From assembly GCA_950054155.1 (NCBI GenBank), contig CATLOT010000026.1, forward strand, positions 1 through 54,662: DNA of 54,662 bases, in the 5' to 3' direction. Of this stretch, positions 7,723 to 20,275 are shown piece after piece (the first letter of the stretch is position 1; each line of letters starts with the position of its first letter). The notes under the pieces were generated by a model, which saw only the letters and a program-made list of their open reading frames with translations, was not told the origin of the DNA and searched no databases. A program made the position numbers and the translations under genes. Source of the DNA: an uncultured Bacteriovoracaceae bacterium (GTDB lineage: Bacteria; Bdellovibrionota; Bacteriovoracia; Bacteriovoracales; Bacteriovoracaceae).

Positions 7723-8532
7723 ATGTCAGAGCAAACGCGCGAATTACCCGCTTATTTAAAACCGATTGAAAGTCTCGGCGCTTCCGTCATGAATACTATT
7801 ACGGGGCTGGGGAGCTTTATCACCTTTCTCTCCAAAGCTTTCTTCTGGTTTGTTAGGCCACCCTTTAGGATTCGTTTGTATTTTGATCAACTCTACTTTG
7901 TTGGAAATAAGAGTATTTTTATCGTGATGTTGGCAGGGTCCTTCACTGGTATGGTGATGGCCTATCAGACCTACTTTGGTTTTAAGCTCATTAGCGTGGA
8001 CTCTCTTGTGGGACCCATTACCGCTTTGACTCTCGCTAAAGAGCTTGCTCCCGTTCTTACAGGTCTCATTGTTGCAGGTCGAGCTGGAGCTGCTATGACC
8101 GCTCAAATTGGTTCCATGAAAGTGACGGAGCAAATTGACGCCCTTGAGGTGATGGGAATTAATGGTATCCAATACCTCGCTGTTCCTCGTATTGTTGCGG
8201 GGACGATCTCTTTACCCATGCTTTCCGCGCTGTTTCTCTTTATTGGAAATGTCGGAAGTTATATTGTTGGAACCAAATTTCTTAGCATCGATGAAGCTAT
8301 CTATTTATCGAAGCTAGGTCAGTTTATGTTTCTCTCGGATATCTGGCAGGGCCTTATTAAGGCTACCTTCTTTGGTTTTATCATCTCCTGCATTGGAACT
8401 TACTTTGGCTTTAATGTAACGAAAGGAGCTGAAGGAGTAGGGAAGGCCACAAACCTTTCTGTTGTGTGGGGAATGATTATGGTCCTTATTTCAGATTATT
8501 TTTTAACTAGTTTTTTAATCCAAGTATTTTAA
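7723..8532 (+). CDS. mlaE: MlaE-family ABC transporter permease
   Basis: MlaE is the inner-membrane permease of MCE-type phospholipid transporters. The 269-residue protein has several hydrophobic helices and the family core: GSFTGMVMAYQ, the long conserved LTLAKELAPVLTGLIVAGR and AMTAQIGSMKVTEQIDAL. It forms a cassette with the ATPase (8536) and the MCE protein (9346), separated by 3 and 57 nt. Direction of lipid movement cannot be read from sequence. No MlaA, MlaB or MlaC gene accompanies it here. Confidence 0.95.
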   Translation: MSEQTRELPAYLKPIESLGASVMNTITGLGSFITFLSKAFFWFVRPPFRIRLYFDQLYFVGNKSIFIVMLAGSFTGMVMAYQTYFGFKLISVDSLVGPITALTLAKELAPVLTGLIVAGRAGAAMTAQIGSMKVTEQIDALEVMGINGIQYLAVPRIVAGTISLPMLSALFLFIGNVGSYIVGTKFLSIDEAIYLSKLGQFMFLSDIWQGLIKATFFGFIISCIGTYFGFNVTKGAEGVGKATNLSVVWGMIMVLISDYFLTSFLIQVF

Positions 8533-8535
8533 GCC

Positions 8536-9288
8536 ATGCTCAATTTTGAAGACCCTGCTATTCGCATTGAAAATTTAACAAAGACCTTTGGCGAACACAC
8601 CGTTTTGAATCGTTTGAACTTTGATATTCCAAAGGGAAAGATTGTGACGATTCTTGGTTTTTCTGGGGCTGGGAAATCAACCCTTCTTAAGCATATCCTC
8701 GGACTCATGCAGCCAAGTTCGGGAAGTATCAGTGTTCTTGGCAATGATCTTTCCACTTTGGATAATGTCGAGCTTCGCGAATTTCGCCGTAACTTTGGCA
8801 TGCTCTTTCAATATGCGGCCTTATTTGATTCTTTGACGGCCCTTGAGAATGTGGCCTTTCCCCTTAAAGAATTTACGAAACTCAGTAAGGGGGAAATTGA
8901 AGCCAAGTGTCACTCCCTCCTTGAAAGTGTTGGTATCAAAGAAATTGCCCATAATAAGTTACCCTCTGAACTTTCAGGGGGGATGAGAAAAAGGGTTGGA
9001 CTAGCAAGGGCACTTGCTCTTGAGCCTCAGATCATGCTCTATGACGAGCCGACAACAGGTTTGGACCCCATCACTACTCATATGGTCAATGATTTGATTG
9101 CCTCAACATCCCAGAAAAACAAAGACCGACAAATGACCTCGATTATTATTTCCCACGATGTGCGAGCATCTTTAAGGATTTCTGACTTTGTCGCTTTTCT
9201 CGATCGTGGTAATATTGTTGAGTACTTACCGGCTAGCGAGTTTGCAGAGTCAACTAATGAATTGGTTCAGGAGTTCGTAAACCTGTAA
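8536..9288 (+). CDS. mlaF: MlaF-family ABC transporter ATPase
   Basis: The ATP-binding subunit that drives the MlaE permease. The 250-residue protein shows all ABC motifs: Walker A GFSGAGKST, Q-loop LFQYAALFD, signature LSGGMRKRVGLARAL, Walker B MLYDEPTTGLDP and the H-loop IIISHD. The QYAALFDSLTALENV stretch is typical of the Mla/Ttg2A branch. It is 3 nt downstream of mlaE and is cotranscribed with it. Confidence 0.95.
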   Translation: MLNFEDPAIRIENLTKTFGEHTVLNRLNFDIPKGKIVTILGFSGAGKSTLLKHILGLMQPSSGSISVLGNDLSTLDNVELREFRRNFGMLFQYAALFDSLTALENVAFPLKEFTKLSKGEIEAKCHSLLESVGIKEIAHNKLPSELSGGMRKRVGLARALALEPQIMLYDEPTTGLDPITTHMVNDLIASTSQKNKDRQMTSIIISHDVRASLRISDFVAFLDRGNIVEYLPASEFAESTNELVQEFVNL

Positions 9289-9345: not shown

Positions 9346-10728
9346 ATGAATGAACTGAAAGTCGGCCTTCTGACCATCGCAACCCTCGCGGCTATTGTGG
9401 TCATGTCTATCAAGGTGACATCAAATCAATCAGGTTTCGGCGATTACGTTCAGTATCGAACGATCATTAGAGATGCCTCTGGCATTTTCCCAAAAACTCC
9501 TATTCGTGTTGCTGGTATTAATGCCGGTCGAATTAAAGATATCAGTCTTGCTGACAATAATGCGGTCATTACCTTTGAGGTTCTCGAAAAGGTTTCAGTG
9601 ACTAAGGGTTCAAAACTTAAAATTAAAACTGTTGGTTTTCTTGGTGATAAGTATCTTGAAATTCAAACGAGTAAAGATGATCAGCGCCTAGAAGAAAATG
9701 CCTTTATTCCTGCACTTGAGGGAGGAGGGATTGAAGACCTTGTAAAGGATGCTTCCACCGTTTTTAAAGATGTTAAGGTCATTGTCGGTAGTATTAAAGA
9801 GTCTCTAGCTCCACCAGGTGAGGAGCCACCCATGAGGAAAATCCTCGCGGATGTTAAGGAGCTTGTTGCTAATACTAAGGTTGCCACAGAAGCTCTTAAA
9901 AGAATCATGGTCGATAATGAAGAGAAGATTAATGACATCATCGCTAATATGGATGAATTTTCAGAGGACATCGCTTACCAAGTTAATAATGACAATAGTG
10001 ATTCCGCGATGGCCGATGTTAAAAAGATTTTGGCCAACGCGAAGAATATTTCTTCTGACCTAGAAAAGGTGATGGGCGACCTGAAGGCCGGTAAGGGAAC
10101 TATGGGTAAGCTCTTAGTTGAAGAGCAAATTGCCGATGAAGTTCGCCAAACTCTTTCAGGTGTTCGCCAACTTGTGACGAGGGTGAATAACCTAAGAACA
10201 GAAATGGAAGTTTATACGGGTGCAAACACTCGTTTTGGGAGTGAATCTCAATTTGGTCTACGCCTTTATCCTTCACCGGAGCGATTCTATGAACTTGGTG
10301 TGGTTACCAGTGAGTTCGGTGTAGAAGACAAATCAATTATTACGTCTAATGTGAATGGTAATGTCACAACGGAACAAAAAACAATTCAAGATGAAGACAC
10401 TTATCGCTTCAATATTCAGATGGGTCGCCACATCCATAACTGGGTTCTTCGTGGTGGTCTGATTCAATCAACTGGTGGCCTCGGTGTCGACTACGAGCTT
10501 GCTGACTGGGGTTCTAAGTTCTCTCTTGATGTTTATGATTATCGTGAGGATATTGGTCCCAATGTTCGCTTTACCCTTGAACATCAACTTTATAATGTTC
10601 TCTACGGAAGAATTAGAGGCGAAGACCTCCTTGAAAGTGGAACGCGAAGTGCGACCTTTAGTTTAGGTATTAAGTTTACTGATGAAGATATTAGGGGACT
10701 CCTTGGTCTCTTCCTTGGTGGGAATTAA
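9346..10728 (+). CDS. mlaD: MlaD-like MCE protein with long beta-rich C-terminus
   Basis: The MCE protein is the lipid-carrying partner of the permease. Residues 1-25 form a single N-terminal membrane anchor; residues ~35-115 are the MCE domain (YRTIIRDASGIFPKTPIRV, VAGINAGRIKDI, VGFLGDKYLEI). Residues ~130-290 are long helices. From ~295 to 460 the chain becomes alternating beta sequence rich in aromatic residues (FGLRLYPSPERFYELGVV, FNIQMGRHI, FTLEHQLYNVLYGRI), ending near TFSLGIKF, like outer-membrane beta-barrel strands. E. coli MlaD has only about 180 residues. A comparable one-piece inner-to-outer-membrane MlaD has been reported in the diderm Firmicute Veillonella. That the C-terminus is a true barrel is an inference. 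Confidence 0.85.
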   Translation: MNELKVGLLTIATLAAIVVMSIKVTSNQSGFGDYVQYRTIIRDASGIFPKTPIRVAGINAGRIKDISLADNNAVITFEVLEKVSVTKGSKLKIKTVGFLGDKYLEIQTSKDDQRLEENAFIPALEGGGIEDLVKDASTVFKDVKVIVGSIKESLAPPGEEPPMRKILADVKELVANTKVATEALKRIMVDNEEKINDIIANMDEFSEDIAYQVNNDNSDSAMADVKKILANAKNISSDLEKVMGDLKAGKGTMGKLLVEEQIADEVRQTLSGVRQLVTRVNNLRTEMEVYTGANTRFGSESQFGLRLYPSPERFYELGVVTSEFGVEDKSIITSNVNGNVTTEQKTIQDEDTYRFNIQMGRHIHNWVLRGGLIQSTGGLGVDYELADWGSKFSLDVYDYREDIGPNVRFTLEHQLYNVLYGRIRGEDLLESGTRSATFSLGIKFTDEDIRGLLGLFLGGN

Positions 10729-10731
10729 GAT

Positions 10732-11772
10732 TTGGCAGAAAAAAATTGGCTCATAAGAACAAAGAATAAACAAATCCTTGGTCCAGCGACCAAGGATAAA
10801 GTTATTGAGCTAATTGAAAAGGGTAGCCTCACAGCTGATGATGAAATCACTTGTGGAAATGGCTACTGGTTTTGGATTCGAGAGGAAGATCTTATTGATA
10901 AGTATCTCTATGGAGATATTCCTCAGTCTTTCAATCCCATAAGTGAAGCTCAGGATGTGATTACTGCGAAGTCGAGTCCAGATGGTATTACGGCTTCAGT
11001 TACTGAGAGTCCAGCCCCTAAAGTTGAGCCTAAGAAAGAACCTCAGGTGTCAGATAACCTTCTTCCTGATGACGATGATTTAGCCTATCCCGATGAGGCC
11101 GATCTTGACTATCCAGATATGGGCGATGACATCGAGCAAGAGCAAGGACAAGAGGAATTAACTCCAAATGATGAAGACCTCGACTACCCTGATGTCGGTG
11201 AGGTGACGGCTGAAACGTCTCCGAGTTTAAGTCTTTCTTCACACACTCAAGAGGTAGAAGTTCCTCGTGAGGAACCTGTCGAGACTATAGTACAAGAGGG
11301 GGAAGAGAACTTTCTTTATCCTTCTGCAGAAGATCTTGAATATCCGATGATGGAAGGTGTTGCTGAGGAGCTAAGTGAAGAAGTTGACGATGATGCCACA
11401 GATCCCAATATGGCAATCCCGTCTCTTGAAGAGGAACCCTCTATTGAAGATATTCCTATTCAGGAGCCCGTAGAAGAAACTCCTGTTGATGTCGCTCCTG
11501 TTGAAGAACTTCCCGAAGAAGCTCCTTATGAAGAACCACCTCTTCCCAAAAAGAAGAAGAAAAAGAAAGTCAGAAAGAAGAAAAGAAAAGTGGCCACAGA
11601 GAGAAAGGGCAATGATCGCTATCTCTTTTTAATTCTCGCTCTCATTATCGTTGCGATTGGTGTCGTTTTCTATTACTACACTGAAGTTCTCAATAAGCCT
11701 TTTCCTGTTCTTGGGATCAATAAGGCCCACGCTCAAAGTCTGCAAAGCCTCAGTAAAAAAAAAGTCTCTTAG
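10732..11772 (+). CDS. GYF_2-domain membrane protein, N-terminal frame (frameshifted gene)
   Basis: Begins with TTG 3 nt after mlaD. Residues 1-60 form a GYF_2/DUF4339-like domain (NWLIRTKNK, LGPATKDKV, GYWFWIREEDL). An acidic middle carries repeated D-L-x-Y-P units, then comes a very basic patch (seven consecutive Lys, then VRKKKRK) and a membrane helix at about residues 297-317, giving a cytoplasmic N-terminus. The frame stops at TAG 11772, about 30 residues beyond the helix, right after a run of nine A. The -1 frame stays open from that point to 13001, so the complete protein is probably about 756 residues with a large periplasmic part. Either the cell makes two products or the sequence has an indel. 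Confidence 0.8.
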   Translation: MAEKNWLIRTKNKQILGPATKDKVIELIEKGSLTADDEITCGNGYWFWIREEDLIDKYLYGDIPQSFNPISEAQDVITAKSSPDGITASVTESPAPKVEPKKEPQVSDNLLPDDDDLAYPDEADLDYPDMGDDIEQEQGQEELTPNDEDLDYPDVGEVTAETSPSLSLSSHTQEVEVPREEPVETIVQEGEENFLYPSAEDLEYPMMEGVAEELSEEVDDDATDPNMAIPSLEEEPSIEDIPIQEPVEETPVDVAPVEELPEEAPYEEPPLPKKKKKKKVRKKKRKVATERKGNDRYLFLILALIIVAIGVVFYYYTEVLNKPFPVLGINKAHAQSLQSLSKKKVS

Positions 11773-11777
11773 AGACT
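11755..11777 (+). other. A9 slippery tract followed directly by a hairpin
   Basis: Nine A residues (11755-11763) are followed by a perfect 6-bp stem AGTCTC-TTA-GAGACT (11763-11777) whose loop holds the first two bases of the zero-frame TAG stop. A -1 shift, or insertion of one A by slippage, joins 10732-11763 to the downstream frame. The hairpin has no spacer, unlike classical ribosomal -1 sites, so polymerase slippage or a sequence error is more likely than ribosomal pausing. Confidence 0.6.
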
Positions 11778-13001
11778 CGTACCCTCGAAAGTCCTTTTGT
11801 TAGCATCGCAGTCGACAGCAGTGTTAATGGATTAAGCTTTAAACAGCCTGAATATAAAAACCTTGAGACGTGTAAGGCTTTTGAGGATTATCTCTTTAAG
11901 CTTGCTCTTATTTTTGAGATACGTGCTGGAAAGAGAGAGAAGTTTAAGCCTCTTTTTACGAAGTGCTTAGGAGAGATTTCTAAAGAGTTTAGTGTGATGG
12001 CCTATTTTCCTTATCTTGGCTCCTTAGAGGATGCAAGTGAGTACCTCAAAGATAATGGTTATGCCCTTAAGTATCGTTTGAAAATTCAAAGTCTCCTGCA
12101 GAGAAAACGTCAGATTGAAGTAATGAAGAAAGAAATCTTAACGTTGATTGATATTCTTCAAGATAAAACTCGCTTGCAAAGTCCTGAAACCCGTCATGAT
12201 GTTCTGAAAAAGGTGAGAAAACTCCCTATTGAATGGTGGGAGCGATTCTTTAGTTTGCTTCTTGCAGTAGAGGGAAAGAATCAGCCATGGGCCCTTGAAC
12301 TCAAAAGAGAGCTGACGAAATCGAGTCCTTATATAACCCTCGTCGGCGGCCTGTCCTTTAGCGAAGATGAGCAAATCAAAATTAGAGACTTCATTATCTT
12401 TGTCCTCAAAAAATATCAGGAACAGTTTGGTGATGAAGAAGGAACAAAAATTTTAGCTGAGAAAATAACGAATGCAGTGGGGAATAATGAATTTAAAGTC
12501 GTTCGTAATCGTCTTGATGCGGATTGGTCTCTCACTGAACTAAGGGATAATTTTAAAAATCCACTACTGAGAAGTGAGTTCTTTGATTTTTGGTATATGG
12601 TAATGATGAATCGAACCAGTGATACTGAAGTCAGAAGTCGCTTTAGAAAGGCTTTAACTCTGCGGTCTCTTAAGAATGCGCAGCCTGGCCAATTTTGGGT
12701 CATGGAATATTTCTTCCCCGCAGAAAAGAAAAAGAGAGAGATTATCCTGTCTCGACTTGAAGACATGTGGGCGGGGACAGATTCCCTTGAGCAGTATACC
12801 GTTCTTAGAGTAAGCCGCTCTTTAAAGATTAAGAATCTTCTTGCGAAAAGAATTCCTGACTTCAAGCGCGCGGATTTTCAAATCAATAGAGAGTTCTATC
12901 GAAAGCTACTCAATAGTGGCCGCTCAACCCACTATGCTTTAGCGGAGCTTTTCTTCTTGGGAGATAAGAACGAGGAGAATCTGTGGTGGCTGATTCTCTA
13001 A
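11763..13001 (+). CDS. periplasmic C-terminal part of the frameshifted GYF protein
   Basis: This is the -1 frame relative to 10732, open without a stop from the A9 tract for 412 residues. Between 11763 and 11994 there is no ATG, GTG or TTG in frame, yet the sequence looks coding (SPFVSIAVDSS, NLETCKAFEDYLFKLAL), so the GTG/ATG at 11994/11997 is probably not the true beginning. The protein is mostly helical and charged, with no family that I recognise. Placed after the membrane helix of the upstream frame, it should lie in the periplasm. Its 3' end overlaps the methyltransferase gene by 19 nt. An independent protein from 11994 is the alternative. Confidence 0.6.
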   Translation, partial: SLLETRTLESPFVSIAVDSSVNGLSFKQPEYKNLETCKAFEDYLFKLALIFEIRAGKREKFKPLFTKCLGEISKEFSVMAYFPYLGSLEDASEYLKDNGYALKYRLKIQSLLQRKRQIEVMKKEILTLIDILQDKTRLQSPETRHDVLKKVRKLPIEWWERFFSLLLAVEGKNQPWALELKRELTKSSPYITLVGGLSFSEDEQIKIRDFIIFVLKKYQEQFGDEEGTKILAEKITNAVGNNEFKVVRNRLDADWSLTELRDNFKNPLLRSEFFDFWYMVMMNRTSDTEVRSRFRKALTLRSLKNAQPGQFWVMEYFFPAEKKKREIILSRLEDMWAGTDSLEQYTVLRVSRSLKIKNLLAKRIPDFKRADFQINREFYRKLLNSGRSTHYALAELFFLGDKNEENLWWLIL

Positions 13002-19113: not shown

Positions 19114-19201
19114 AAGGTTGTGAATTCTTTTGCCTAAGGCTAGCTTAAGTGCTACCAATGGAGATTACGTGGTTTTAAAAAAGATTTTGGAGAAGGTAGG
19201 T

Positions 19202-20275
19202 ATGGCCAAGAAGAAAACGGCTAAGAAAGCTGCTAAGAAAAAGACAACTCGCGCAAAAACGGCGAAGAAGACTTCAAAGAAGTCGACGGCTTCCAAGAAA
19301 AAGACTGCGAAGAAAGTCACTAAAAAGACAGCGAAGAAAACAGCAAAGAAAACGACCAAGAAAACGGCTAAGAAAACTGCGAAGAAGACGGCCAAGAAAA
19401 CGGCTAAGAAAACCGCTAAGAAGACGGCTAAGAAAGTTGCGAAGAAAACAACTACCGCCAAGAAAAAAGCAGCTAAGAAAGTTGCAAAGAAAACCACGGC
19501 AGCCAAGAAGAAGGTAGCAAAGAAAAAAGTAGCCAAGAAAACGACTGCAGCTAAAAAGAAAGCAGCGAAGAAGGTGACTAAGAAGGTTGCAAAGAAAGTG
19601 ACGAAGAAGACAACAGCGGCTAAGAAAAAGGTTGCTAAGAAAGTGACTAAGAAGGCTGCTCCTAAAGCTGCACCTGCTAAAAAAACGGCTGCACCAAAGA
19701 AAGTTGAGGCTGTTGAAAAAGCAACTCCTAAAAAGACAAAAACTGCAGCTAAGAAAACAGTTGAGGTGGAGTCAAATCAACTGGATCTTGATCTGACAAA
19801 ATCACAAAAGAAGACCATTGCGAGTGAAGCGAGAGAAAAGGTTTCTGAAAGTATTGGAGATCTCAATGGAGAGTATTCTCTTAAAGAGATTTTTCAGGCT
19901 ATTAAAACTCTTGAATTTTATACTTCTGACAGCGATGAGTGTTTAGCTCGTGGTTGTGAGAACCCAGCGACAACCTCTGGTTACTGTCGTTTTCACTATA
20001 TCTCATCTTGGAAAGATATTAAGAAGAAGCAGCGAATCCTCGAAGAGGGACAGCTTCAAGAATTTATCGAAGGTCTTGTTGAGAAATATCCTATTAAGTT
20101 CATCGAAAGTCTTGTTAGTGACCTCACTGACGAGAAGTCTTTCTTCGCTATCCTAAAAGAGATGGATATCGATGCAGATGAAGAGTCTTATGAAGATATC
20201 GAAGAAGGTGATGATGATGATCAAGACATCGCCTTTGAAACGAAGGGTTCTGCTTCTCCTCGCTTTGAGGAATAA
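19202..20275 (+). CDS. histone H1-like lysine-rich protein with C-terminal Cys3His module
   Basis: About 357 residues from ATG 19202, chosen because GGAGAAGG stands just before it and the product then starts MAKKKTAKKAAKKK. Residues 2 to about 190 are repeats of AKK(T/V/A)AKK type, as in bacterial H1-like DNA-compacting proteins. The C-terminal third is quite different: acidic and folded-looking, with C247-x4-C252-x9-C262-x2-H265 (ending GYCRFHY), a likely zinc site, then helical sequence and an acidic tail (EEGDDDDQD). The basic arm should bind DNA; the job of the C-terminal domain is unknown. A weak promoter candidate lies at about 19130. Confidence 0.85.
   Translation: MAKKKTAKKAAKKKTTRAKTAKKTSKKSTASKKKTAKKVTKKTAKKTAKKTTKKTAKKTAKKTAKKTAKKTAKKTAKKVAKKTTTAKKKAAKKVAKKTTAAKKKVAKKKVAKKTTAAKKKAAKKVTKKVAKKVTKKTTAAKKKVAKKVTKKAAPKAAPAKKTAAPKKVEAVEKATPKKTKTAAKKTVEVESNQLDLDLTKSQKKTIASEAREKVSESIGDLNGEYSLKEIFQAIKTLEFYTSDSDECLARGCENPATTSGYCRFHYISSWKDIKKKQRILEEGQLQEFIEGLVEKYPIKFIESLVSDLTDEKSFFAILKEMDIDADEESYEDIEEGDDDDQDIAFETKGSASPRFEE
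19208..19672 (+). repeat. imperfect tandem AAG/AAA-rich coding repeats
   Basis: Short units of the type GCN-AAG-AAA-ACN repeated dozens of times encode the Lys/Ala/Thr arm of the histone-like protein. Synonymous codons vary between units, so the repeat is kept at protein level rather than being a recent DNA expansion. Confidence 0.8.

Follow-up and report, generated by a model that had tools for sequence, protein, structure and literature searches.

A gene for a membrane protein in an uncultured Bacteriovoracaceae bacterium is divided between two reading frames at a run of nine A residues. We consider it probable (about 0.83) that this tract is a site of programmed transcriptional slippage, through which one gene would yield a short tail-anchored form and a long one carrying a domain in the periplasm. 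Natural slippage giving two products had been proposed in a first-pass annotation of this DNA and stands as the best reading, supported by relatives which keep both the tract and the −1 split. The best explanation of these comparisons is that tract and split together would constitute a built-in expression device, kept across almost the whole family.

According to this model, RNA polymerase would slip on the A9 tract and produce mRNAs differing in their number of A residues. The faithful transcript would encode a short protein composed of a cytoplasmic GYF domain, one transmembrane (TM) helix and a short periplasmic tail. A transcript with one additional A (or two fewer) would join ORF1 to the −1 frame, giving a long protein that gains a helical-repeat domain of ~410 residues in the periplasm. 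The tract would fix a standing ratio between the two forms, which might cooperate beside the MlaEFD-type lipid transporter whose genes lie upstream. The comparisons below lead us to infer slippage, its transcriptional rather than ribosomal nature, the ratio of the products and their joint action. A standing ratio of the two forms fits the evidence better than an ON/OFF switch; a dosage switch, as suggested at first, is possible.

The split gene and its surroundings

The window, i.e. the whole stretch of 54,662 nt analysed, is one of the 61 contigs that make up a 3.52-Mb draft genome. The relatives used for comparison, mostly draft MAGs, are recorded in their titles as Bacteriovoracaceae or Halobacteriovoraceae, and the host family consists mostly of predatory bacteria. 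The split gene lies in a conserved operon (Table 1), whose first gene we presume to be mlaE-like from protein similarity rather than from a domain scan. In all 70 loci with enough upstream sequence (70/70) mlaE-mlaF-mlaD precedes the split gene; from this synteny we would guess that the short and long forms are partners of the encoded MlaEFD-type lipid transporter.

The short product comprises, in this order, a GYF-like domain, an acidic linker with repeats, a polybasic stretch, the TM helix and a short periplasmic tail. Its score against Pfam GYF_2 is 17.6 bits, below the gathering score of 25.8, and matches are likewise sub-threshold in 11 of 12 relatives (best E 5.2e-5). On the other hand, the ten top Foldseek matches of the N-terminal AlphaFold (AF2) model are all GYF domains, including that of Myxococcus xanthus GltJ (7z3c), with probabilities of 0.82–1.0 and TM scores of 0.54–0.60 at weak E-values of 0.03–0.23. 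ORF1 orthologues with the GYF-like N-terminus occur in 121 of 129 family genomes; among the 73 with completeness of 90% or more and contamination of 5% or less, 72 have the N-terminus. Among relatives the pN of ORF1 is far lower than its pS.

The extent of ORF1 given by the first-pass annotation, running into the A9 tract and ending at 11772, was confirmed, except that the stop does not follow directly behind the tract. In frame 0 the junction reads AGT AAA AAA AAA GTC TCT TAG and in the −1 frame TAA AAA AAA AGT CTC TTA. The tract is the sole A9 in the 54.7-kb window on either strand. The whole 3.52-Mb genome contains 92 overlapping A9 matches, and no second real frame junction was found among the 63 matches of at least nine A residues examined; two candidates (L335, L068) were rejected as ordinary starts of the following gene.

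It had also been claimed, correctly, that the −1 frame is open from the tract to 13001 and lacks a start codon for its first 231 nt. This frame, ORF2, spans 414 codons from 11757 to the TAA at 12999–13001, the earliest possible start being the GTG at 11994. Since the TAA at 11754–11756 closes the −1 frame on the 5′ side, an independent start further upstream is impossible. The AF2 model of ORF2, built from 25 sequences, is a helical repeat with a pLDDT of 92.1 and a pTM of 0.89. In a comparison with TPR and other named helical-repeat families, no Pfam or NCBIfam family scored above threshold, and a search of the PDB gave no clear match to the fold (Foldseek E ≥ 0.04; VIA Z ≤ 6.6 over ~65–140 residues). 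By the positive-inside rule the domain should reside in the periplasm.

Table 1. Features of the split gene and its operon, in window coordinates.
Feature	Position	Strand	Remarks
mlaE-like permease gene	7723..8532	+	first in conserved operon; ORF listing, synteny
mlaF-like ABC ATPase gene	8536..9288	+	ORF listing, synteny
mlaD-like (MCE) gene	9346..10728	+	stop 3 nt upstream of split-gene start
ORF1, short product, 346 aa	10732..11772	+	TTG start, TAG stop
GYF-like domain, cytoplasmic	10738..10965	+	sub-threshold Pfam GYF_2; AF2 model matching GYF structures
Single TM helix YLFLILALIIVAIGVVFYY	11620..11676	+	hydropathy; follows a Lys/Arg-rich stretch
TAA of the −1 frame upstream of ORF2	11754..11756	+	overlaps the tract; closes ORF2 on its 5′ side
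A9 tract, putative slippery site and frame junction	11755..11763	+	sequence; A9–A14 at the equivalent place in 77 genomes
ORF2, predicted periplasmic helical-repeat domain of the long product, 412–414 aa	11757..13001	+	−1 frame
6-bp hairpin AGTCTC-TTA-GAGACT, incidental	11763..11777	+	−5.4 kcal/mol; not conserved
TAG stop of ORF1	11770..11772	+	6 nt after the A9 tract

Conservation of the tract and drift of the frame

We assigned to one set all genomes in which a TM helix is followed, about 90–180 nt after its start, by a run of at least nine A residues and then by the downstream domain; loci were fetched, read and then classified by script. The set comprises 77 family genomes from 29 genera, with the downstream domain at −1 in 64, in frame in 12 and at +1 in one. 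The A tract and the −1 split are conserved in related genomes, the outcome that the first-pass annotation had named as favouring slippage. Most tracts are A10 (57 genomes), the others being A9 (10), A11 (6), A12 (3) and A14 (1), and they start in all three codon phases. All seven members of the host genus, window included, have the −1 arrangement. Its six congeners, with ORF2 39–56% identical, carry A10, the same TAA and the same 414 codons open at −1 to ORF1. In 64 relatives an ORF1-type stop lies 3–60 nt past the tract.

Homologues of ORF2 were detected in 37 of 98 sampled relatives and, by profile, in 82 of 129 family genomes. Its dN/dS among relatives, where dS is estimable, is 0.05–0.10, and ORF2 is under strong purifying selection. 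The locus has two of the features by which programmed transcriptional slippage is recognized, an A/T homopolymer of at least nine residues at a two-frame junction and, on either side of it, parts which are conserved in relatives and under purifying selection.

Runs of this kind are rare in the neighbouring genes. In the same loci, ORFs of 200 codons or more apart from this gene contain 10 runs of at least nine A residues in 370,653 nt, or one per 37 kb, and control ORFs of 300 codons or more have 45 KKK tripeptides, none of them coded as A9. Of the 4494 Lys codons that the gene has outside the tracts, 1652 are AAG (36.8%), compared with 0 of 218 within the tracts, and synonymous sites between species are near saturation (pS mostly ~0.65–0.86). 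When codons were redrawn with the amino acids fixed, 20 of 73 genomes retained a junction run of at least nine A residues against 73 of 73 in reality, a difference which, as these genomes were selected for having such a run, shows only that KKK alone does not force it.

Several lineages depart from this arrangement. In four more genomes (g33) an A9–A10 tract at a −1 junction lies farther from the TM helix, and four others (G015, G164, G039, G132) have the frame change or the tract solely before it. The gene is fused without a junction tract in G023, G166, G029 and G032, ORF2 is a separate gene with its own start and signal peptide in G033, G048 and G051, and in genus g15 ORF2 has been lost, the gene ending past the TM helix. 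Lineages that do without the device, being fused without a tract, having separate genes or lacking ORF2, count against programmed slippage. However, relatives with one frame or separate genes, which the first-pass annotation had regarded as potentially refuting, are confined to a minority of lineages.

On a 70-row MlaE+F tree the frame switches among −1, 0 and +1 at least 10 times while the tract persists. Two sister species, in which ORF2 is 86% identical, differ in both tract and frame (A11/+1 in G142, L142; A10/−1 in G143, L149) and form a natural pair for comparing the two. Families elsewhere in the phylum have this N-terminus in a short tail-anchored protein (f8) or within a single-frame protein of ~570–600 codons without a junction tract (f6, f3), which in f6 is encoded downstream of mlaE-mlaF-mlaD in two genomes. 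By slippage, a single gene here would give both forms, of which the sister families encode one or the other.

Probable transcriptional slippage and its alternatives

A tract length of at least nine, starts in any codon phase, the absence of A_AAA_AAG, the −1, 0 and +1 arrangements and the drift of the frame all point to slippage by RNA polymerase. Ribosomes, too, can slip by −1 on A_AAA_AAA, and both mechanisms can act together. Programmed −1 ribosomal frameshifting on this heptamer, from a homogeneous mRNA, nevertheless appears unlikely. It would account for the −1 direction in 64 of 77 genomes, its heptamer is present, as it necessarily is in any run of 9–10 A residues, and in this sequence a hairpin stands directly 3′ of the tract. 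However, the hairpin adjoins the tract without the usual spacer, and neither hairpin nor Shine–Dalgarno sequence is conserved. The hairpin described in the first-pass annotation does exist here, but it lost its standing as a frameshift stimulator once 64 relatives were folded: the mean z is ~0 for the 60 nt on each side of the tract, with −0.04 to −0.15 downstream. Moreover, the canonical A_AAA_AAG never substitutes for the pure A run, no heptamer of the A6G type occurring in the tracts of the 77 genomes, the shortest tract is nine though seven would suffice, and the same A10 is present in +1 and in-frame relatives. The +1 cases, at the junction in G142 and at a second tract before the TM helix in G056, G042, G144 and G164, do not fit −1 ribosomal slippage.

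It is likewise improbable that the tract is an unselected by-product, tolerated because slippage rescues frameshift mutations. Similar rescue is known from reduced genomes, and the repeated frame changes speak for neutral tolerance. On the other hand, these genomes measure 2–5 Mb, the −1 frame predominates, AAG does not interrupt the tract, and A9–A10 is retained in the 12 genomes that are already fused.

DNA-level phase variation, in which mutational changes in tract length would leave the long form ON in some cells and OFF in others, seems very unlikely. Tracts of A9–A14 are hypermutable in principle, and the close relatives G142 and G143 do differ in frame. However, a random switch predicts about one third of genomes in each frame, far from the 64/12/1 (−1/0/+1) seen, and the host genus is uniform. 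In addition, the 12 frame-0 genomes mostly have A10 and differ in start phase, eight of them starting in phase 1, rather than in tract length; a miscalled homopolymer length is accordingly not the cause of their frame.

We attach hardly any credence to two independent genes with a separate start for ORF2. Such an organization exists in the three genomes where ORF2 has its own start and signal peptide, but among the tract-bearing species neither is conserved, an in-frame stop lies upstream of ORF2 at or near the tract, and single-frame fused relatives exist. Across relatives the first ATG lies 7 to 893 nt past the tract, usually more than 100, and none is conserved; Shine–Dalgarno sequences before the tract are not in excess in 64 relatives (6 observed, 5.1 expected). 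Translation of ORF2 from its own start was rejected for lack of a conserved start codon and of such an excess. With no ORF2 start, no Shine–Dalgarno excess and a folding z of ~0, both re-initiation and a structured ribosomal signal are unsupported.

A miscalled homopolymer, or an indel that recently inactivated the gene in this genome alone, had to be excluded according to the first-pass annotation. The genome is a draft in 61 contigs and homopolymers are prone to error, but both readings are ruled out by the six congeners and dozens of further species sharing the split, including assemblies of two (G008) and five (G054) contigs, and by the dN/dS and confident fold of ORF2.

Other A tracts and comparable systems

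A run of A9–A13 before the TM helix is present in 41 of the 77 genomes and absent from the window. In 73 genomes it was observed 37 times compared with 22.5 expected from Lys codon usage; as this region is Lys-rich and codon usage alone gives 22.5 of 73, the second site is a lead and not a result. In three genomes (G056, L107; G042, L091; G144, L229) the GYF, TM and periplasmic parts lie in successive frames, with the TM segment in +1 and a return to frame 0 for ORF2, and with a run of at least nine A residues at each border, so that the full protein would require two slips. We raise tentatively, and with some doubt, a family-wide module in which the pre-TM tract would give a soluble GYF form and the post-TM tract would add or drop the periplasmic domain, allowing up to three products. 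The genomic frames might be free to drift in such a module because RNA polymerase would read the tracts in all frames.

The family dnaX genes (loci L359–L387 were read) carry A9–A12 at one linker position, ~230–265 codons past IDEVH, in 20 of 27 genes checked, nearly all in frame. This is the signal of the Thermus type for gamma and tau (PMC1088944, PMC3711429) and serves as a supporting control. The host dnaX (L327/L358; G000:C7:118935-120500, minus strand) carries A10, in frame, at the linker between domains III and IV, and in G006 (L363) ORF1 of dnaX stops just past A9 with the remainder in a different frame. Elsewhere in the host genome, a YceI-like protein has an in-frame A10 shortly 5′ of its TM helix (L330; G000:C9:20069-20078, minus strand), a possible slippage site. 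Positions 19130–20275 of the window encode a long Lys/Ala-rich repeat protein with KKTAKKT repeats, a histone-H1-like tail and a folded C-terminal part.

The closest parallel is tssM of the type VI secretion systems of Citrobacter rodentium and Yersinia pseudotuberculosis, where transcriptional frameshifting has been proven experimentally in two species: a poly-A tract (A11) yields a short form alongside one that carries a periplasmic domain at its C-terminus, and a proper ratio of the two is required (PMC4256274). Both cases concern an inner-membrane protein with a poly-A tract and these two kinds of product, predicted for the present gene, and just as tssM is split in C. rodentium and fused in Y. 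pseudotuberculosis, the host family has both arrangements. In contrast, the proteins are unrelated, the distribution is two species there and a whole family here, and slippage was proven for tssM and is probable for the present gene. Transcriptional slippage on A9/A10 also gives the two product lengths, gamma and tau, of dnaX in Thermus thermophilus and Chlorobi (PMC1088944, PMC3711429). It resembles our case in its conserved A9–A10 run and in giving a chromosomal, non-mobile gene two product lengths, but slippage shortens the Thermus product and would lengthen the present one in most species. The Shigella genes spa13 and mxiE, also non-mobile, have products that slippage extends at the C-terminus (PMC5009743, PMC1088944). 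These, however, are plasmid-borne type III secretion genes of narrow distribution.

GltJ combines a GYF domain in the cytoplasm with a membrane segment and a part beyond the cytoplasm. In this architecture the predicted product resembles GltJ of M. xanthus and Bd0075 of Bdellovibrio (PMC12034629), neither of which is known to be split.

A search of an open-access library, which omits most subscription papers, for slippage and frameshifting in Bdellovibrio and Bacteriovorax gave no account of this gene. Conserved slippage is rare in chromosomal, non-mobile genes, and a review of 2016 puts the number of known frameshifting cases of this kind as small (PMC5009743). In a routine annotation such genes would appear as broken, or with just one of their halves listed. 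The device would work like that of tssM; the novelty lies in the gene itself, in a conservation that spans 29 genera and in the range of natural variants, which are split, fused with a tract, fused without one, encoded as separate genes or reduced to the short form. These variants would permit a direct test of why two lengths of a membrane protein are made, and of which of the two, tract or frame, is under selection.
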